A stretch of DNA of 64,000 nt from Dactylonectria macrodidyma (lineage: Eukaryota > Ascomycota > Sordariomycetes > Hypocreales > Nectriaceae). The translations under genes were made by a program, and so were the position numbers. Each line of letters starts with the position of its first letter. Position 1 is the first letter of the stretch. The stretch is from positions 62,001 through 126,000 of the forward strand of contig JAGMUV010000056.1 of assembly GCA_020744425.1 (NCBI GenBank), given 5' to 3'. This document shows positions 1 to 40,307 of this stretch, in pieces. Under the pieces are notes generated by a model that was not told where the DNA came from, made no database searches, and was given only the letters and a program-made list of their open reading frames with translations.

Positions 1-4
1 TTTT

Positions 5-1537
5 ATGCCTAAATACATCTAAGAAGACCTTGAACTAGCCATTCAGGATGTGAGAAATGGCGTATTAATACGAAAAGCAGCCAGTCAGCGCGGAGTCCCC
101 AAATCAACCCTACAAAGCAAGATAAATAGCGTACCTAGCCGCAATAAAGCCCACGAATGGCGTCAGGTGCTTTCCAAATATCAGAAAGACCAGCTGACTG
201 ATTGGCTCATCTTTTAAGATAAGCTCGGCATGGCGTTGATGCATAGCCAGATCCGGAAGTTGGCGATTTCCTTGTTAGGCCAAAGCGGCACCAACTAACG
301 ACTCGGAAAACACTGGATGAAGGGCTTCTTGCGCCGCAACCCGCGAATAAAAACGCTCAAAGGAAAGGGAATCGACCGGAAAAGGATAAATGGAGCAAAT
401 CCGGCTGCTATTGGCGGGTTCTTTGATCTATTGGGCCAACCAGAGGTCGCATCGATCCCTCAACGCAACCATTGGCATCTTGACGAAATTGGAGTCTTCC
501 AAGGGCCCGGATCTAACGGGCTTGTGGTTGGCCAATCAGAGCTTCAATCAACGATTAAGAAACAGCCGCAAAACCTTAACTGGATATCTATTCTTGAGGT
601 TATTTCTGCAACGGGAAGGTGCCTTGACCCATTAGTCGTCTTTAAAGGCAAAGACGTCCAGCACTAATAGTTTCCTGAGGAATTGGACTTTCTGACCAAT
701 TGGAGATTTACATCATCTAAAAAGAGATGGACTAATAACGAAATTGGGCTTGCGTAGCTGCAGGAAGTCTTTCTTCTGGGCTCAAAGCCTGCCCAGGCCA
801 ATGAAAAGCGGCTTCTTATCCTAGATGGGCATAGATCATACATAACGCCTGATTTTATGCGTATTTGTGTGACCAATAGGGTCTATTTACTCTATTTACC
901 ACCTCACACAAGCCACGTTCTTTAGCCTCTTAATATATCAGTCTTTGGGCCACTTAAAGCTGCATATCGGGCTGCTTTACTGCTAGCCAATCCTATTACT
1001 GATGCCAGCCCAACTAAGAAGGAAGACTTTCTAAAATGCTATTTTCAGGCTAGGAAGAAGGCTATTACTACTCGAAATATCCGTTCGGGTTAGAAAGGAG
1101 CCGGGTTGTGGCCAATTAACATCTCAAAGCTAATGGGTAGTAAATTCGTTATTGAGGATCCTAAGAACTCAATTACGGTCCAATTAGGAGCCCCCATTTC
1201 TCCAAAGACGAATCAGAGGTCTGAAATCAGCCCTTTTACAACCCCTAAGACTTTGAGAGACGTTGCTTTATTAGTCCATTCTAAAAAGAAGGAACTTCTC
1301 AACAGCCCAACCACAAAGCAGCTATTTCAGGCTATTGACCGGGGTTATAATAACCTTCACTTACACAACGCCCAATTAGAAGACAGAATTCTAGTCTAAG
1401 ACCGAAATTCAAGCCAATCAAAGGCTAAGAAGAGAGAAAGGGTTTATAAAGACCCAAATAAGGAATTTTCTAACATCCAGAATGTCAAGAGGGCAAGAAG
1501 GCGAATAAAAACGCCTGAGGTTGAAGATTCAGAATAG
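5..1537 (+). pseudogene. Fot1/pogo-type (Tc1/mariner superfamily) DDE transposase, RIP-like decay
   Basis: A single reading frame runs from the ATG at 5 to a TAG at 1535 with no frameshift but nine internal stops. In order I see a psq-like helix-turn-helix (residues about 5-50), a CENP-B-type DNA-binding region (about 55-110, ending KGFLRRNP), and a DDE_1 catalytic domain: WHLDEIGVF (first D, near 470-500), LLILDGHRSY (second D, near 818-845) and LPPHTSHVL followed by NISVFGPLKAAYR. The stops (TAA/TAG) sit where relatives have Gln or Trp, so each is explained by one C-to-T change on one strand, as expected from repeat-induced point mutation. The family cuts and pastes into TA sites. The left end lies outside the window; the right terminal repeat is probably near 1690-1750 but I could not pair it. 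Non-functional as read. Confidence 0.88.
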
Positions 1538-11137: not shown

Positions 11138-11388
11138 TGTTGCATCTGATAGGAAGGGTGCATTGTGATGTAAGTAGAAGCTCTTGATTTCTATCTAACT
11201 GAGGGCTCGCGGCAGACCTATTTGTAGGTTGCCCTCATAGCTATGATAAGGTTCTCGGTAGACCGGATCCCAAGGGATCCGGGTCTTCGAGACCGGCTTG
11301 TTAGGAAGCCGGGTCTTTGAGACCGGTTTATTAGAGATCCGAGCCTTTGAGACTTTATCTTCAGTCTCAACAGTTGATAGATGTGACA
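11138..11388 (-). repeat. 3' LTR of the copia element
   Basis: It starts TGTTGCATCTG and ends GATGTGACA in plus-strand reading. It reads base-for-base the same as 16653-16903. An internal direct repeat built on 'gggtctt(c/t)gagaccgg' occurs twice. Confidence 0.93.
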
Positions 11389-16652: not shown

Positions 16653-16903
16653 TGTTGCATCTGATAGGAAGGGTGCATTGTGATGTAAGTAGAAGCTCTT
16701 GATTTCTATCTAACTGAGGGCTCGCGGCAGACCTATTTGTAGGTTGCCCTCATAGCTATGATAAGGTTCTCGGTAGACCGGATCCCAAGGGATCCGGGTC
16801 TTCGAGACCGGCTTGTTAGGAAGCCGGGTCTTTGAGACCGGTTTATTAGAGATCCGAGCCTTTGAGACTTTATCTTCAGTCTCAACAGTTGATAGATGTG
16901 ACA
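16653..16903 (-). repeat. 5' LTR of the copia element
   Basis: 251 bp, TG...CA, identical by eye to 11138-11388. It is immediately followed by the Helitron remnant at 16904. Confidence 0.93.
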
Positions 16904-25139: not shown

Positions 25140-25456
25140 CTCTTCGCCCAGTTTTCCTTTTGCTTCCGCACGACGCTCTGATAACCCGTTCGATCCGCCT
25201 AGGAAGCCTTGTCGATAGCGAACGAAGGCCATACGTCGCTCGCAAAATATCCCCAACTCTCATCTTTGTGGCAGAGTACCAGCCAGGGACCTCCGCATCG
25301 CTAGCTCAGACGTCACAAGCCTCCTCCCCTAGCACTCTTCGAGAATCGCAGCTAAGACGTACGAACCCTCATGAATGAGTAGTTGTATAACAACTCACAA
25401 TGATCGCAGGCAACCGAATCATTTCCCGACCCCCGTCAACCCGGACCTCGATAGAG

Positions 25457-28400
25457 ATGGATCCCCTTAGCGTTATTGCGTCTACAATCGCTGCCGTTCA
25501 AGCCATCTCTTCGACATATAAGACGATCCAACACCTAAGAGGCCTTCCGAATGAGTTTAATGAAGTGAGCCGGAACCTCCCTCTCGCGCAAGACACTCTA
25601 GGTCTGGCCCGTGATCGGCTCCAAGGTCTGGACCTGGATGATTCATCCAAAGAGGCCCTCCAGCCTGTGGTCAGTGGCTGCGAAGAGAAGGCCAAAATGC
25701 TACAAGACATCTTTGAGAAAGTTGAAAAAGGGGCGAAGAGTGCGAAGGACGGATTCGTGCTCGACTTCTATCGCACCTCTCTGCTCCGCTTGGGCAAAGC
25801 ACACCGAGTGGAGACCCTGATGCGGGGCATCTTGAAGGGCTTGGATGCATTGGCTACCAATCAGTTGTTCAAGACGGCAACCCAGAGCCAGATGGCCCAG
25901 CTGAAGGAGGCGATTGATCAGCTGTCGAATGTGGAGTCATCCGTGCCAGACTCGGATTTCGAGAGTGGGACAAACTCTCAGCATATCGCCTCTGGGGGAA
26001 CGGGCTATCAGTCTAACATTACTGGCCAAGATCATAAGATCGCCTCTGGCAGTGGCCATCTGAATATTGTCTCTGGAAGTGGGCACACTATGAACTTCGG
26101 TACGAAATGACAAATTGATAGCTATATTCATTACTAATAGACTAACTTTTCTTGCTCTGAAGTTCATTCTAATGAAGATGACAAGACTCGGAGTCATATC
26201 CTCCAGACCCTCCATACCTCACCGTATCTGGATAGAAAAAACAGGAATCCAGATCGGGTCCCAGGGACGTGTGAGTGGTTCGTAGATCACCGCAACTTTC
26301 AGCAATGGCGAGACAACAAATCAAGAATGCTCTGGGTGTCTGCAAATCCCGGGTCTGGAAAGTCTGTCTTAGCAAAATATCTAGTGGACTCTGAGCTTCA
26401 GACTACGAAATCCAGAACGACCTGCTATTTCTTCTTTAAGGACGACTTCGAGGATCAGAGGAGCGCCAAAAGCGCTCTCAGCTGCATCCTACATCAGCTC
26501 TTCACACAAAGAGAGGACCTATTCTCTGACAAGATTGTCAAGCGGTTCGAAGCGTATAAAGCACATCTTACCAGCTCGCTTGATGAACTCTGGGACGTCC
26601 TGCTTATAACTTCACAGGACAAGAATGCTGGCGAGTTAGTCTGCATCCTTGACGCATTCGACGAATGCGAAGACCAAGAGCAGCTCAAGCTTGCCCACGC
26701 CCTGCGCAAATTCTATAACCCGGAGAGTGACACAAAGAATAACGTCAACTTGAAGTTTCTCGTAACAAGTCGGCCCTACGATAAAATCGGACGGGGCTTC
26801 CAGCCTCTCAATGTTCCGGGGCTGCCTGTCATCCGCCTGAAGGGGGAAAGCGACACGGAGATATCGAAGATTGCCCAAGAGATCGATGTCTATATAGAAC
26901 ATAAGGTTTCGCGGATCCGAGCTGACCTATATCTCAAACCGGACGAGGAACAGCTGCTCCTGCAAGAGCTCCGGCGTGTTCCTAACCAGACATATCTATG
27001 GGTTTATCTCACCCTAGAGTTAATCGAAAGCGACATTAATATCGATAAGACTAAGATACGCGAGGTCACTTCCTCACTCCCACGAACCGTCGATGCCGTG
27101 TACGAGAGGATTCTAGCTAAGAGTAGTAATCCCGAAGAAGCCAAGAAACTCCTACATATTATCGTCGCGGCAGCACGGCCCTTGACTCTGGTAGAAATGG
27201 ACCTCGCGTTAGCTCTTCAAGAAAATCACAAGTCCTATAAAGACCTGGATGGCAGGCCAGAAGAGCGCTTCAGCAGGTATGTCAGAGACCTCTGCGGCCT
27301 CTTCGTAACCATCACAGACTCGAAGATCTATCTCCTTCACCAGACCGCGAAAGAATTCTTGGTCCAGAAACACGATCCGGATCCTCGAGGGGATCACGAC
27401 AATCAGCGCATATGGAAACACTCACTCCAGCCACCAGAGTCCCATCGCATTCTTTGCCAGATCTGTATCCAGTACCTGCTCTTTACTGAGTTTAAGACCC
27501 ACCCTCTAGATGAAAATCTAGACGAAAATCTAGACGAGAAAGTATCCCACTACCTTCGCGATCACGTCTTCCTTGACTACTCTGCTACAAACTGGGCTGC
27601 CCACTTCCGACAATCGGGTGAAGACAATGCAATCATAAAATCACTGCGACGAATCTGTGATGCGAATTCAAACTGTTGTCTGACTTGGTTCAGGATCTAC
27701 TGGGTGCGCACACACACAGGCTTTCCTCAGGATTTCACGACCCTCATGATTGCCTCATATTTCGGACTTGAGCAAATTGTAAAGCTTCAACTTGATACAG
27801 ACGAGGTTGAAGTGGATTCCATAGATGGCACTTATCGGCGTTCGGCGCTCTCTTGGGCTTCAGAGAACGGGTTTGACTGTGTCGTGAAGCTGCTGATCAA
27901 GCGTCCAAAGACTGGCTCCTCCGCCAAACCATCGTTACCGATCAAGCGTCCAAAGACTGGCTCCTCCGCCAAACCATCGTTGCCGAAAGGCGCGGAAGTG
28001 GACGCAAGAGATAGATATGGTCGAACGCCGCTATCATACGCCGCTTGGAATGGTCACATGGCCATCGTACAACGGCTGGTCAAGGCGGGGGCCTGCGTCG
28101 AGTCAAAGGATGAAATTGGAGGGACGCCAATATCCTATGCCATTTGCAGTGGACATGAGGATGTAGCCAGCCGACTAATGAAGGGAGGCCATGTCGACTC
28201 AGTGGACAAGATTAGTCAGGAACTACTCTTGTCCGCTGCCAAGAAGGGAGACGAGGCAGTCGTAAAGCAACTGCTCGACAATGGCGCCGCTACAGAGGTG
28301 GTGGATAGCACTGGCCGGACGCCGCTGTCGTATGCTGCCGAAGGCGGGCACGTGGCCGTTGCGCGGCTGTTGCTAGACAAAGGGGCCGACGTAAATACGA

Positions 28401-30375
28401 AGGAGAGTGCAGACCACACCCCATTAGCTCGCGCGGTCGACAACGGGTCCACGGATATTATCGAGATACTGCTTAAAGGGGGCGCGAAAGTGGAGTGCTC
28501 ATTCATATCCCCTGTGAGTAATCCTGCACTGACCTCGTAGTCGGATCGATAATTAACGGTCTTCTCTCTAGCCGTCGCAGACCGTGAGTGAACCCGATAC
28601 GCTCTGATTTCTCTATTGATGACTAACATCGGCACCTTTGGCTGTTGTAGGATGTGAGTGAACATGATCCGCTCTGATTCCTCTATCGATGACTGATACC
28701 ACCTCCTTTAGCTGTTGCAGCAAGTAAGTGAACGCGATCCGCTCTGATCTCTATCGATGGCTAACACTACTGCCTTTGGCTATTGCAGCCAGTAAGTGAA
28801 CACGATCCGCTCTGATCTCTATCAATGACTGACACAGCTGCCTTTTGCTATTGTAGTTTGTAAGTGAACATGACCCGCTCTGATCTCTATCGATGGCTAA
28901 TACTACTGCCTTTGGCTATTGCAGCGAGTAAGTGAACACGATCCGCTCTGATCTCTATCAATTACTTACACAGCTGCCTTTGGCTATTGTAGTTTGTAAG
29001 TGAATATGATCTGCTCTGGTCTCTATCGATGCTAATACAGCCACCTTTGGCTGTTGTAGTCCGTAAGTAAATATAATCCGCTCTAATCTCTATTGATTGC
29101 TGACACTACCGCTTTTGGCGGTTATAGATTGTAAGTGAACATGATCCGCTCTGATCTCTATTAATGACTGATGCTGCTGCTCTTGGTTATTGTAGGAGGT
29201 AGGTGAACATGATCCGCTCTGATCTCTATCGATGGCTAACACTACTGCCTTTGGCTATTGCAGCGAGTAAGTGAACACGATCCGCTCTGATCTCTATCAA
29301 TGACTGACACAGCCGCCTTTGGCTGTTACAGCAAGTAAGTGAACATGATCCGCTCTGATCTTTATTGAAAGCTGATACAGCCGCCTTTGGCTATTGTAGT
29401 TTGTAAGTGAATATGATCTGCTCTAATCTCAATCGATAGCTAATATCACCGCCTTTGGCTGTTGTAGATTGTAAGTGAACATAATCCGCTCTGATCTCGA
29501 TCGATGGCTGACACAGCCGCCTTTAACTTTTATAGGAGGTAGGTGAACATGATCCGCTCTGATCTCTATCGATGGCTGACACAGCTGCTTTTGGCTATTG
29601 TAGTTTGTAAGTGAACATGATCCGCTCTGATCTCGATCGATGGCTGACACATCTGCTTTTGGCTATTGTAGTTTGTAAGTAAATATAATCTGCTCTAATC
29701 TCTATCGATGGCTAAAACCGCTGCCTTTGGCTGTAATAGATTGTAAGTGAACGTAATCCGCTCTGATCTCGATCGATGGCTAACACTACTGCCTTTGGCT
29801 GTTGCAGTCAGTAAGTGAACATGATCCGCTCTGATCTCTATTGATGGCTGATACTGCTGCTTTTGGCTATTGTAGAATGTAAGTGAACATGATCCGCTCT
29901 GATCTCTATCGATGGCTGACACAGCCGCCTTTGGCTGTTGCAGCGAGTAAGTGAACATGATCCGCTCTGATTTCTCTATCGATGACTGACATCGTCGCTT
30001 TTGGCTGTTGTAGCGTGTAAGCGAACAGTCCAAACTTGAGATCATCTGGTTTTGTGCAATTCATGCGCTAATGTTGTCCTCTTTTCTATTCTAGCGTGTG
30101 AGTGAACCCGATCGAATCTGAATTGATTTCTTTACTAACACGATCGTCAGTCGCCGCTATTGCGGGCAGTGGAGAATGAAAACCGTAGCGTGGTAGAGCT
30201 ACTACTCAAGTATGGTGCTCGGCCGGATTCCCTTGGCGATAGCCCTTGCACTTGCACGCCACTGTTTTTGGCAAAATTGCTTCGTAGCCGCACCATCGTC
30301 CAGATGCTGGAATCTCCTGTGCGACCTCGTAAGGCCATCGAAATTAGCACGGCCGAACGATGCTCCGTCTGCTAA
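25457..30375 (+). CDS. SesA-NACHT-ankyrin NLR with a one-codon microexon array
   Basis: Start chosen at MDPLSVIASTIAAVQAIS (25457), the usual SesA/NACHT_N start; an upstream in-frame ATG at 25400 exists. Exon 1 is 25457-26099; the intron 26100-26162 is required because the frame otherwise stops at 26108; exon 2 is 26163-28513. SesA covers residues 1 to about 150, then a Gly/Ser/His-rich linker (about 180-212). NACHT: ANPGSGKSVLAKYL (about 276), LVCILDAFDECED (about 375) and LKFLVTSRPYD. Ankyrin repeats run from about 740 (RSALSWASENG, RTPLSYAAWNGH, RTPLSYAAEGGH, HTPLARAVDNG). Exon 2 ends phase 0 in mid-ankyrin; the domain resumes at 30151 (SPLLRAVENENRSVVELLL). The 1637 nt between are 24 intron-like units and 23 triplets. 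Length is about 1072 residues with no triplets and about 1095 with all. Likely a cytosolic STAND sensor; ligand unknown. Confidence 0.85.
27896..27985 (+). repeat. Perfect-period 45-bp tandem duplication in the ankyrin region
   Basis: Two 45-bp units (27896-27940 and 27941-27985) each encode IKRPKTGSSAKPSLP and differ by one base near the end. The duplication is in frame and lengthens a loop between two ankyrin repeats. Confidence 0.9.
28514..30150 (+). repeat. Tandem array of 24 intron-like units separated by 23 exact 3-nt exons
   Basis: Triplets start at 28581, 28651, 28721, 28789, 28857, 28925, 28993, 29060, 29128, then every 68 nt to 29944, then 30014 and 30095. Intron-like units are mostly exactly 65 nt (range among internal units 64-78; last 53). 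Each begins GTAAGT, GTGAGT, GTAGGT or GTAAGC, usually followed by GAAC, carries CTAAC/CTGAC/CTGAT/CTAAT-type branch sites about 25 nt from the end, and closes with TTTGGCTATTGTAG or a variant. All 24 donors and 24 acceptors are intact. Triplets: TTT five times, CGA and ATT three times each, CAA, GAG and CGT twice each, and ACC, GAT, CCA, TCC, TCA and AAT once; none is a stop. The first intron may instead end at 28571, giving a 12-nt first exon. Either way all frames are kept. Confidence 0.92.
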
Positions 30376-35863: not shown

Positions 35864-38800
35864 ATGCCCGGCAATGACATTCGCTTACTTGCCCTCGACG
35901 GCGGCGGAGTCCGCGGCCTGTCCTCGCTGATGATTCTACAAAATCTCATGAGTACCATCGACTCCGACTCCCCGCCTAAGCCATGCGATTACTTCGACAT
36001 GATCTGCGGCACCAGCACCGGCGGCCTGATCGCTATCATGCTGGGGCGCCTGAGGATGACGGTTGACGAATGCATCACTGCATACACATCCTTGTCCGAC
36101 AAGGTGTTCGAGAAGAAGAGCCACAGGGTCAAGATCAACGGCCAGTTACAGGGCAGATTTGATACTGTGGCGCTGGAGCAGGCAGTCAAGCAGATCCTGG
36201 TGGACAATGGCCACAGCGAAGACGCGCTTCTTAAAGATCCCTCCAAAACAGCTTGCAAAGTGTGAGTTTCTGACTCCCTCATTTCCTTACGGCAGGGCTA
36301 ACCGACAAGCTTCGTGTGCGCGACGAGCAAAGAAACCGGAGACACGGTGTGCCTAACGAGCTACCGTCCCCGCGGACTGGCTCACCTATATGACTCAACC
36401 AAGATATGGCAAGCCTGTCGGGCGACATCTGCTGCGACCACCTTCTTCGATCCAATCGCCATTGGGCCCTTTCAAGAGCAGTTCGTTGACGGTGCCCTGG
36501 GAGCGAATAACCCCGTATACTCGCTTTGGAACCAGGCGCAGGATGTCTGGGCTGACCAGCTGCGGGGCAGTCTTCGGTGCCTGGTGTCGATCGGTACGGG
36601 CGTGCCCGCCTTGACGCCCGTGCGTGATGATGTCCTAGGCATCGGGGCCACCTTGAAGAAGCTCGCGACAGAAACAGAGACGACGGCGGAGCAGTTTCGC
36701 CGCGATAAATCCAGCCTCGACGACGAAGGCCGCTACTATCGCTTCAATGTCGCCCGCGGTCTCGAGGATGTCGGCCTGGAAGAGTCGAGGAAGCAGCGCG
36801 AGATTGCGGCGGCGACCGGACGTTACGTCGCGTCACAGGACGTGTTTAGACAGATGAAGGAATGCGCAAATGGCCTTGCGAGGAAGCACTGTTAGTTAAT
36901 CCTAGTCGCTGCAAGTTCCTATATTACGTTCCCACCTCCCGTCGCAGTGTCGCTAATCCATCGTCGCAAGACTTCGGGTCCTATAAGACACCCTTCAGCC
37001 TGGACGGTGTACCCGCGTCGAGCAACTTCGTCGACAGGCCGTCCGATACCGCCGATCTGGAGAAATACCTTCTCCCCCGCCGATCGCATTCCCGACAGAC
37101 AAGGAAGGTCTTCGTGCTGCACGGACTCGGCGGCGTCGGAAAGACACAGCTAGCCATCGATTTCGCTCGGCATCACCAGGCTACGTTCAGCTCGGTCTTC
37201 TGGCTTGACGGCAGGTCGGAGGACCGCCTCAGAGGGAGCATTGCCGGCTGCGTCAACCGGATCCCCAAAGGGCAAATTCTCAGCACAGGCCAGAACCAGT
37301 CCGAGGCTCACGGCAAGGACGATCTCGATGCCGCCGTCGCGAGCGTGATGGAGTGGCTTGCGCGGCCTGACAACGGCGACTGGCTGTTGATATTCGACAA
37401 TGTCGACCAAGACCACGAGCAAGGCGGCGTGACAGGCGCATACGATCTGAGACGCTACCTGCCCGGCGATCACGGGGCAATACTGGTCACGACGCGGCTT
37501 TCGCGCCTTGCGCAGCTAGGCGAGTCCAGGCGGTTGGCCAAGGTTGATTTAAGTCTTAGCAGGATTATTTTTGGGAAATGGTATGGCGGCGAACTCGGTG
37601 AGTCTTGGTGGCCTCGCACGTCAACTGCAATATGATGTAATCTTACCTCGTGCCAGGCTCGGACTGTGATCAGCTCCTCGAGTTGCTAGATGGCCTACCC
37701 CTGGCGCTGGCGCAAGCCGCCTCGTACCTCCGGGAAAAGGGGATCGACGTAACGACGTACGTGCAGATATACAAACACCAGTGGGACGAGCTGATGGGTT
37801 CCCGCGATGCATCGAGCCGCCCACTTCTAGATTACGAGCAGGGAAGCATTGCAACGACGTGGATGGTTTCGTTCAAGGAGATTGAGAAAAAAAGCACCGA
37901 TGCCGCCAGTCTGTTGCGACTCTGGGCCTTTCTTGACAACAAGCAGCTGTGGCACGGTCTACTTGGAGCGGCGGGAAGGGCAGACCGGTGGCCCGCTTGG
38001 CTCAGGGAGATGGCTCGCAAAGAAGTGCGATTCCTGGACTCTATTGGCCTGCTACTCCGGTACTCGATGGTCGAAACCCAGGAAGGATCGACAGGCAGCT
38101 ACTCCATGCACCCGGTGGTGCACAGGTGGGCGTCGTTCCTGGATGGCGACCAGCAGAAACACGAGTCGGCAAGGCTGGCGCTCGTGGTGGTTGGTTCCTC
38201 GGTGCTGACGCGAGAATCGAAGGAGTATTGGGTCTTCCAGCAGAAGCTTCTCCCGCACGCGGAGAGGTGCGCAGAATGGATGCGAGAGGCACTCTCGGAC
38301 GCGGGTGTTTGGTATATTGGCGATGAACTGGTGATGTTCTCGTTACATATGCTAGGGATCCTCTACTCAGATCAAGGCAAGTTCAAGGAGGCAGAGGAGA
38401 TGTATGAGCGGGCGCTAGAAGGCAAAGAGAAGGCGCTTGGACCTCATCATCCATCGACTCTCAACACAGTCAACAGCTTAGGTCTTCTCTACTCAGACCA
38501 AGGCAAGTTCAAGAAGGCAGAGGAGATGTATGAGCGGGCGCTAGATGGCTACGAGAAGGCGCTTGGACCTCATCATACATCGACTCTCGACACAGTCCAC
38601 AACTTGGGTCTCCTCTACAAGGACCAAGGCAAGTTCAAGGAGGCAGAGGAGATGTATGAGCGAGCGCTAGAAGGCAAGGAGAAGGCGCTTGGACCTCATC
38701 GCACATCGACTCTCGACACGGTCAACAACTTGGGAAACCTCTACTCGGACCAAGGCCAGATCAAGGAGGCGGAGGAGATGTATGAGCGGGCGCTAGAAGG

Positions 38801-40307
38801 CTACGAGAAGGCGCTTGGACCTTATCACACATCGACTCTCAGTACAGTCAACAACTTAGGAAACCTCTACAACCACCAAGGCAAGTTCAAGGAGGCAGAG
38901 GAGATGTATGAGCGGGCGCTAGAAGGCAAGGAGGAGGCGCTTGGACCTCATCATACATCGACTCTCGACACGGTCCACAACTTGGGGAGCCTCTACAACC
39001 ACCAAGGCAAGTTCAAGGAAGCAGAGGAGATGTATAGGCGAGCGCTAGAAGGCAAGGAGAAGGCGCTTGGACCTCATCATACATCGACTCTTAGAACAGT
39101 CAACAACTTGGGAAACCTCTACAACCACCAAGGCAAGTTCAAGGAGGCAGAGGAGATGTATGAGCGGGCGCTAGAAGGCAATGAGGAGGCGCTTGGACCT
39201 TATCACATATTGACTCTTAACACGGTCCACAACTTGGGGATCCTCTACAACCACCAAGGCAAGTTCAAGGAGGCAGAGGAGATGTATGAGCGAGCGCTAG
39301 AAGGCAAGGAGAAGGCGCTTGGACCTCATCACACATCGACTCTCAGTACAGTCAACAACTTGGGAAACCTCTACTCAGACCAAGGTAAGTTCAAAGAGGC
39401 AGAGGAGATGTATGAGCAGGCGCTAGAAGGCAGAGAGAAGGCGCTTGGACCTCATCACACATCGACTCTTGACTCAGTTCACTGCTTAGGAATCCTCTAT
39501 AAGGACCAAGGCAAGTTCAAGAAGGCGGAGGAGATGTATGATCGGGCACTAGAAGGCTACGAGAAGGCGCTTGGACCTCATCATACATCGACTCTCGACA
39601 CAGTCAACAACTTGGGGATCCTCTACTCAGACCAAGGCAAGTTCAAGGAGGCGGAGGAGATGTATGAGCGGGCGCTAGAAGGCAAGGAGGAGGCACTTGG
39701 ACCTCACCATACATCGACTCTCGACACGGTCAACAACTTAGGAAGCCTCTACTCAGACCAAGGCCAGATCAAGGAGGCGGAGGAGATGTATGGGCGAGCG
39801 CTAGAAGGCAGCGAGAAGGCGCTTGGACCTCATCATATATCGACTCTTAGTACAGTCAATAACTTAGGAAACCTCTACTCGGACCAAGGCAAGTTCAAGG
39901 AGGCGGAGGAGATGTATAAGCGGGCGCTAGAAGGCAAGGAGGAGGCGCTTGGACCTCACCATACATCGACTCTCGACACAGTCAACAACTTAGGTCTCCT
40001 CTATAAGGACCAAGGCAAGTTCAAAGAGGCAGAGGAGATGTATGAGCGGGCGCTAGAAGGCAGAGAGAAGGCACTTGGACCTTATCACACATCGACTCTG
40101 GACTCAGTTCACTGCTTAGGAATCCTCTACTCAGACCAAGGCAAGTTCAAGAAGGCGGAGGAGATGTATGATCGGGCACTACATGGTTTCCAAACAGCCC
40201 TGGGACCCAACCATCCCAAATCATCTATGGTAATGCGCAACATAGAATCTTTACAAGGCATCTGCTCTCTTCAAGGCAGAGCTGCACATCCTGGTAGATT
40301 AGATTGA
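35864..40307 (+). CDS. Patatin-like phospholipase-NB-ARC-TPR NLR, intact
   Basis: Exons 35864-36261, 36310-36894, 36948-37597 and 37657-40307 join in frame to 1427 residues. The second donor is GTTAAT at 36895, chosen because it avoids an in-frame TAG and restores phase. The patatin domain has the oxyanion loop ALDGGGVRGLSS (residue about 10), nucleophile elbow GTSTGG (Ser about 51) and the catalytic Asp in VDGALGANNP (about 193). NB-ARC: LHGLGGVGKTQLAIDF (about 385), WLLIFDNVDQD (Walker B), GAILVTTRLS, LDGLPLALAQAASYL and MHPVVHRW (MHD-like). Then 15 TPRs of exactly 42 residues (about 777-1406). Patatin-NLRs in fungi are implicated in incompatibility and regulated cell death, with the lipase as effector and the TPR array as sensor; here that is inferred. 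All catalytic residues are present and no break is seen. Confidence 0.93.
38352..40241 (+). repeat. Fifteen tandem 126-bp TPR-coding units
   Basis: Unit starts are exactly 126 bp apart from 38352 to 40116 with no indel. Each encodes LGxLYxxQGKFKEAEEMYER followed by ALEGxEKALGPHHTSTLxTV and two more residues. Differences concentrate at a few codons: residue 3 (Ile, Leu, Asn, Ser), residues 6-7 (Ser-Asp, Lys-Asp, Asn-His), the residue after ALEG (Lys, Tyr, Asn, Arg, Ser), the residue after STL (Asp, Ser, Asn, Arg), and the last two. Confidence 0.97.

Follow-up and report, generated by a model that had tools for sequence, protein, structure and literature searches.

A gene of the ascomycete Dactylonectria macrodidyma that encodes a receptor of SesA-NACHT-ANK architecture, as assigned with Pfam, is interrupted by 24 GT...AG introns which follow one another at intervals of exactly one codon. 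The array is probably a real gene structure, from which the introns would be removed individually, leaving up to 23 codons to form a variable ankyrin loop. The window analysed comprises 64,000 nucleotides, to which all coordinates without a prefix refer, and the window array is designated C52 where it is compared with other loci. The gene and the array are made up of the following features.

25454..26107, forward strand: exon region with SesA, an N-terminal NLR domain (Pfam PF17107, E=4.3e-37)
26327..28513, forward strand: exon region with NPHP3_N/NACHT-type NTPase, GPIID_WHD and ankyrin repeats (Pfam, ORF, P0001), an open frame counted from its first ATG
28514..30150, forward strand: the array, 24 introns and 23 one-codon exons (GT...AG parse, TRF, in-locus exon-length scan)
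28514..28580, forward strand: intron 1, outside the repeat family and common to the C15 paralogue; alternative acceptor at 28571
28581..28583, forward strand: one-codon exon 1, ACC (Thr); the C15 paralogue also has Thr (ACG)
28584..30013, forward strand: introns 2-22, the tandem family, 64-67 nt, with signal columns invariant in 71/71 core units of C52 and C15
28651..29946, forward strand: one-codon exons 2-21
Exons 2-8, forward strand, first bases at 28651, 28721, 28789, 28857, 28925, 28993 and 29060
Exons 9-15, forward strand, first bases at 29128, 29196, 29264, 29332, 29400, 29468 and 29536
Exons 16-21, forward strand, first bases at 29604, 29672, 29740, 29808, 29876 and 29944
30014..30016, forward strand: one-codon exon 22, CGT
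30017..30094, forward strand: intron 23, 78 nt, outside the repeat family and resembling intron 52 of C15
30095..30097, forward strand: one-codon exon 23, CGT (Arg), the identical codon in the C15 paralogue
30098..30150, forward strand: intron 24, 53 nt, resembling intron 53 of C15
30151..30375, forward strand: last exon, SPLLRAVENENRSVVELLLKYGARPD..., ankyrin repeat, with the TAA stop at 30373

When intervals of 3 nt are demanded, the stretch is tiled end to end with no remainder and no stop codon among the exons, and TRF gives a period of 68. The introns measure 65 nt in 17 cases, 67 nt in four, and 64, 78 and 53 nt in one case each. Their donors are GTAAGT (17), GTGAGT (4), GTAGGT (2) and GTAAGC (1), and their acceptors TAG (15) and CAG (9). 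Codons 1-12 are ACC GAT CAA CCA TTT CGA TTT TCC ATT GAG CGA CAA and codons 13-23 are TTT ATT GAG TTT TTT ATT TCA AAT CGA CGT CGT, which together spell the peptide TDQPFRFSIERQFIEFFISNRRR. A scan of exon lengths from 0 to 12 nt inside the locus recovered a chain of 23 at 3 nt and at most two at any other length, with at most one at spacings of 0-2 nt. Some units contain a second AG upstream, and part of the array could therefore have shorter introns and longer exons; in intron 1, the acceptor at 28571 instead of 28580 would give a first exon of 12 nt. The preliminary description of this DNA had proposed 24 intron-like units with 23 one-codon exons, a reading confirmed by the parse and the repeat period. 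Its further view of an expanded intron/microexon array in an NLR-type gene agrees with the anatomy and the domains, and its suggestion that the array could add 0 to 23 residues is supported by the arrangement of the exons.

The host gene corresponds to EDB81DRAFT_769315 (P0001) of D. macrodidyma, with a match of 100%. It combines a NACHT-type NTPase with ankyrin repeats (NPHP3_N, E=9e-32; Ank_2, E=3.8e-39), and the NACHT model itself scores 23.4 bits, under its cut-off of 26.7. The coding sequence before the array ends ...GGAKVECSFISP at 28513 in phase 0. Both flanking exons had been described as phase 0 and as ankyrin sequence of one protein, which Pfam and the match to P0001 bear out. The array is flanked by ...GAKVECSFISP and SPLLRAVENENRSVVELLLKYGA..., and the ankyrin consensus together with a Trichoderma ceciliae model (P0021) would place it in the loop between two ankyrin repeats. 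P0021, a model whose exon structure is not visible, joins YSFTIF directly to SPLLRAVEN with no insert. The public protein P0001 can be accommodated by 23 introns in the array stretch with 14 one-codon exons, in a solution that was obtained with wide intron limits and a minimum-intron search and need not equal the deposited gene model; for some of the units this solution uses an upstream AG, among them the acceptor at 28571. A protein search for sequences sharing the C-terminal part of the array returned only the gene itself and one mussel ankyrin protein (E=5e-4). Among 120 homologue models scanned, 12 show the array site, and six of these end by reading into what appears to be intron 1. The six (P0003, P0006, P0008, P0009, P0010 and P0014) have a similar, VSNxxLTSQLNR-like tail. 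Intron 1 (28514-28580) thus seems to be old and conserved, and in the species of these models either arrays follow as well or retention of intron 1 is itself used. The Ilyonectria robusta model P0004 reads YSFLLP and then SKSEVPRSTGCGSS..., a run that could consist of one-codon exons joined by the annotator.

A whole-genome DNA search with one unit gave 65 matches, a lower bound, at only two loci of D. macrodidyma, namely the window array and the following one.

C15:742490-746186, minus strand: paralogous array with 53 GT...AG introns, 52 one-codon exons and no stops

The C15 array occupies the same site in a paralogous gene, which is an NLR gene according to the precomputed domains of P0005, and its one-codon exons spell TASPVPSEYEQYRELEKQLESRYPYYSYLPPESKRSYKESLKQSYEELSVGR. 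The last exon and last intron of the window gene are likewise confined to these two loci in the genome search. The outer introns (the first and the last two) and the terminal residues T and R match between the loci, and the inner units have been turned over. In the exon-length scan of C15, 52 exons are chained at 3 nt and eight at 7 nt, the latter probably through donors shifted by 4 nt. The 3-nt exon length fits all 75 exons of the two arrays, whereas intron length varies. The C15 exons use 13 codon types only, and units 36 and 44, as well as 37 and 45, are identical in both intron and codon.

Similar strings have been found elsewhere in the genome. The pattern GTAAGT-branch site-AG-3 nt-GTRAGT had 104 matches against 10 for a reversed control (100 of the 104 were listed, the other four being units of the window array), and the pattern starting with GTGAGT had 20 against 11; with a 6-nt exon, the same pattern had five against seven. 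From the 124 matches of both 3-nt scans, whose reversed controls total 21, 113 belong to eight string loci and the other 11 lie isolated. The scans use set donor words, and strings with other donor words may escape them. Six of the strings lie beyond the two NLR arrays and are built of other introns.

C8:455625-458685 (L038): 29 one-codon exons under a strict donor rule, 43 under a relaxed one; HET gene
C1:3248090-3249487 (L036): 15 one-codon exons strict, 20 relaxed; HET gene
C2:1716835-1717418 (L037): seven one-codon exons strict, nine relaxed; HET gene
C24:372490-372860 (L039): four one-codon exons in about five 70-nt units
C11 (L040): seven one-codon exons; HET gene with Pkinase upstream
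C45 (L041): seven one-codon exons, six from the chain parse and the seventh read separately; HET gene with Pkinase upstream

None of the 165 one-codon exons at the eight loci, by the relaxed figures, is a stop; the probability of this is 0.0004 under independent uniform codons, and the copies are not independent. Chain ends may include chance extensions. There are some exceptions to the standard structure: C8, C1 and C2 each contain one intron that lacks a standard branch site, C8 has in addition a single GC donor, and one interval in C24 measures 9 nt, unless a poor donor is accepted, in which case it measures 3 nt. In C2, a HET domain was detected in one of two stop-free pieces searched, the frame being otherwise broken. 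Three ORFs searched at C24 contained no NLR or HET domain, and a hAT dimerisation match lies nearby. According to Pfam and precomputed domains, seven of the eight loci are NLR or HET genes, a count in which the gene content of the genome is not factored. Four of the 11 isolated matches were inspected, and three of them, at C32:41691, C23:4470080 and C23:1267397, do not form strings. The fourth, at C12:525133, is a candidate for a single 3-nt exon in a gene that by its motif is presumably a cation exchanger; it was set aside, as one longer intron explains it equally well.

The best evidence for translation comes from a kinase-HET gene, C45. The introns of the two kinase-HET genes, C11 and C45, judged by eye, resemble neither each other nor the tandem families. 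The string reads R-D-Y-G-L-T-N in C11 and N-E-Y-R-F-T-P in C45; both are bounded by T(N/E)R and L(D/N)D.W.Y, and C45 continues LNDNW. The residues NEYRFTP were read from the C45 DNA before the homologue results, and were included in the homologue query. A model from Bimuria novae-zelandiae (P0157, exon structure not visible) contains NEYRFTP-LDDNWKY without a gap, with the same residues at the same place as in C45. Related runs are present in P0152 (EEYRFEP-LDDDWEY), P0153 (EEYRYTP-LDDKWKY) and P0161 (DEYKYTP-LDDRWTY), each uninterrupted. Among the 120 matches listed of 791, 50 models, including the one deposited for C45 itself, bear the anchor, and four of these 50 match the motif. The remaining anchor-bearing models differ at the motif position, which may reflect either annotation failure or a real difference. 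The deposited model of C45 (P0122) has N-E-Y-T, four of the seven residues. These agreements constitute strong evidence that the one-codon exons of the C45 gene are joined and translated. For the window array, translation is supported by analogy, and since its codons are not conserved, their translation has to be derived from other genes. The one-codon exons of the kinase-HET gene look conserved rather than variable, and diversification therefore cannot explain that case.

In the tandem arrays, the splice signals are fixed and the codons change. The array introns look like U2 introns, with a GT donor, a YTRAY branch site, a YAG acceptor and a length of 50-80 nt. GT donors and YAG acceptors are present in all 77 introns of C52 and C15. 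No variation occurs among the 71 core units of both arrays in any of the eight signal columns (GT, G5, T6, branch T and A, AG), whereas of the 57 other intron columns six are invariant, a distribution with a chance of C(14,8)/C(65,8) = 6e-7; a minisatellite lacking splice function does not account for such a pattern. Entropy at the three exon positions amounts to 1.91/1.90/1.55 in C52 and 1.94/1.72/0.96 in C15, with intron means of 0.44 and 0.46. Divergence was compared between each unit and its nearest neighbour, picked on the other columns, in C52, C15, C8 and C1, with C2, C24, C11 and C45 left out. In C52 the exon diverged by 0.40 against an intron-triplet mean of 0.135 and a maximum of 0.333, and in C15 by 0.395 against 0.118 and 0.252, ranking first of 56 triplets in both. 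The C8 exon (38 of 43 units) diverged by 0.57 against a mean of 0.105 and a maximum of 0.377, first of 63. In C1 (18 of 20 units) the exon was not the fastest triplet, with 0.389 against an intron mean of 0.258 and a maximum of 0.5. A raw exon/flank ratio of 14 in the closest pairs was discarded as overstated, because the pairs had been picked on their flanks; the fairer test gives about three times the mean intron triplet. The absence of stops is a weak test, with a chance of 0.25 in C52 and 0.01 in C15, or 0.50 and 0.65 when distinct codons are counted once. The flanks of units that share a codon resemble one another slightly more than those of other units (permutation P 0.022 in C52 and 0.0005 in C15), and this resemblance, together with the 13 codon types of C15, indicates that part of the codon pattern is due to duplication and not to new mutation. 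Splice signals that never vary, next to a codon that is the most variable triplet in C52 and C15, point to individually spliced introns and a variable insert.

The codons might, however, be translated and serve no function, the array having grown by unequal crossing-over and being tolerated through splicing and a permissive loop. Loops between ankyrin repeats are generally known to accept insertions, duplication appears as a main source of change in the limited codon set and identical units of C15, and the C1 exon does not outpace its introns. This explanation has some weight, but it is doubtful, for relaxed constraint alone does not predict a codon divergence above every intron triplet in C52, C15 and C8, and the concentration of strings in recognition-type genes, with the reservation on gene content given above, also speaks against it.

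In the preferred reading of individually removed introns and a variable ankyrin loop, each of the 24 introns would have a donor, a branch site and an acceptor of its own by which it is recognised, and would be removed singly. Spliceosome footprints are such that neighbouring introns with a spacing of 3 nt cannot be bound simultaneously. An acceptor and the next donor would not be occupied together at this distance, so stepwise removal is the simplest route, and it would run intron after intron, probably 5' first, as the RNA emerges. Dozens of successive splicing steps would have to be efficient. Full splicing would insert up to 23 single residues into the loop between two ankyrin repeats, within the presumed ligand-sensing part of the receptor. 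Since the exons are single codons, all in phase 0, skipping would shorten the peptide and keep the frame, the resulting ankyrin loop having 0 to 23 extra residues, whereas a retained intron would introduce a stop or a frameshift. Tandem duplication of the intron and codon unit would let the array gain or lose length, and since intron signals are kept while the codon diverges, the locus might work as a peptide loop variable in both length and sequence. The sensing role and positive selection are elements of the model that we infer, as are the splicing order and the extent of skipping. As a more tentative extension, which we hold to be possible but short of probable, strings of one-codon exons may be a general device of ascomycete NLR and HET recognition genes, a receptor loop with one residue per exon and homogenised introns. 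Unit gain, codon mutation and frame-safe skipping would then vary a binding loop both heritably and through splicing, with an effect comparable to that of a hypervariable loop, and the conserved kinase-HET string would represent a fixed form.

The many introns could instead act as a brake on expression, keeping a potentially lethal receptor low or conditional by means of stops and mRNA decay, with the codons being incidental. HET and NLR proteins trigger cell death, and retention gives an in-frame stop for 23 of the 24 introns of the window array and all 53 of C15. The conserved look of the kinase-HET exons, to which diversification does not apply, is also in keeping with a brake. It is nevertheless an unlikely explanation, as it predicts neither exons of exactly one codon nor fast codon change.

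Removal of the whole array as one long intron, from the first donor to the last acceptor, was considered as well; a minisatellite would have grown inside an intron, and the inner sites would hardly be used. An ankyrin loop free of the array equals that of T. ceciliae P0021 in length (CSFISP/SPLL versus YSFTIF/SPLL), and it is the outer introns that are alike between the paralogues while the inner ones have been turned over. Yet the inner GT, branch and AG columns are the ones without variation in 71 units whose other columns vary, the 3-nt exon holds throughout both arrays despite varying intron length, six other strings in the genome have the same architecture, and the kinase-HET string matches the residues of relatives. 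A single long intron is accordingly considered improbable, and individual removal remains preferred.

Invasion by an introner, in which copies of a mobile intron would have entered an ordinary exon at one codon boundary after another, would explain near-identical introns between different codons. Fungal introner-like elements are near-identical short introns, present in many copies and dispersed over many genes, according to the accessible text of two papers (PMC4457414, PMC9860276). The D. macrodidyma units share the near identity, short length and high copy number, but they stand in tandem at one site of two paralogues, the 65 matches (a lower bound) falling at these two loci instead of being dispersed. 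Units identical in intron and codon indicate duplication of whole units, and no resemblance between the introns of C11 and those of C45 is apparent by eye, so that an introner origin is very improbable. Stwintrons of ascomycetes are nested introns excised by consecutive splicing at one position, as described in the available part of PMC12403724. Consecutive reactions at one intron position would be common to both systems; in a stwintron, as there described, the donor of another intron is split, whereas the window units are complete introns 3 nt apart, with chains at 0-2 nt of at most one, and the array is thus not a stwintron. An assembly artefact is scarcely credible, since, hard as long tandem arrays are to assemble, the units differ from one another, the arrays lie on two separate contigs and no exon at the eight loci is a stop.

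The closest known system is found in truffles, where NACHT-ANK/NLR genes with codon-sized or 3-bp exons that are alternatively spliced are mentioned in the accessible text of four papers (PMC4986451, PMC10197012, PMC3689799, PMC9815663), three of which speak of multiple, tens or dozens of mini-exons. The statement in the preliminary description that no equivalent had been described is thus mistaken. As far as these texts go, the nank genes of Tuber melanosporum are likewise NACHT-ANK receptor genes, and their codon-sized exons, which number from tens to dozens, are credited with diversifying the C-terminal recognition region. Tens of 3-bp exons are also present here, 23 in the window and 52 in C15, with the structure read from DNA. 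Tuber belongs to another class of Ascomycota than Dactylonectria. The source cited by all four papers for the 3-bp exons of T. melanosporum is Iotti et al. 2012. Unlike Tuber nank as described in the text available, the D. macrodidyma units form tandem arrays with 68-70-bp units and up to 53 introns, and strings are also present in HET genes. Alternative splicing has been reported there for the Tuber mini-exons, whereas the D. macrodidyma arrays are known from DNA alone. In Drosophila homothorax, an alternatively spliced 3-bp micro-exon has been described, in the part of the paper available (PMC7392893). As presented there, it is one exon in an animal gene with no array, unlike the D. macrodidyma strings. 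Micro-exon genes of schistosomes contain many small symmetric exons that can be skipped with no loss of frame, a likeness to the present arrays; they differ in their longer exons, long introns and secreted proteins, and we know of no one-codon tandem arrays among them. The accessible part of PMC11121469 states that functional microexons had not been described before in filamentous fungi, and its introduction cites earlier fungal microexon work, including that of Iotti. In the literature searched on microexons, heterokaryon incompatibility, truffle genes, introners and stwintrons, which was available in part and mostly outside subscription papers, no HET-gene strings or comparable tandem arrays were found. 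As far as this search extends, the other fungal class, the tandem amplification, the presence in HET genes and the conserved seven-exon string are new with respect to the truffle case, as are codons that outpace their introns in three of the four arrays tested.

Should the introns be removed singly, the spliceosome would process up to 53 of them in succession across gaps of 3 nt, which would put both intron definition and sequential splicing to a severe test. Should the codon variation be under selection, the strings would provide a compact way of receptor diversification without the machinery of immune cells, in both NLR and HET genes. The public model of the C15 gene (P0005) includes two one-codon exons and then stops inside an intron, and as the models of both NLR array genes, P0001 and P0005, capture the arrays only partly, mis-annotation of such strings is suggested and may be frequent in fungal recognition genes.

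Other repeats are present in the window. At 36862-40307 on the forward strand lies a second NLR-like gene, with an ORF containing a P-loop-like stretch, GGVGKTQ, recognised by eye, followed by an 885-aa ORF with near-identical 42-aa TPR-like repeats; these correspond to a TRF array at 38353-40181 with a period of 126 and 14.5 copies. The same pair of repeats with a 30-bp period occurs at 11260-11353 and 16775-16868, 5.5 kb apart and with identical TRF scores and consensus, which suggests a duplicated segment.
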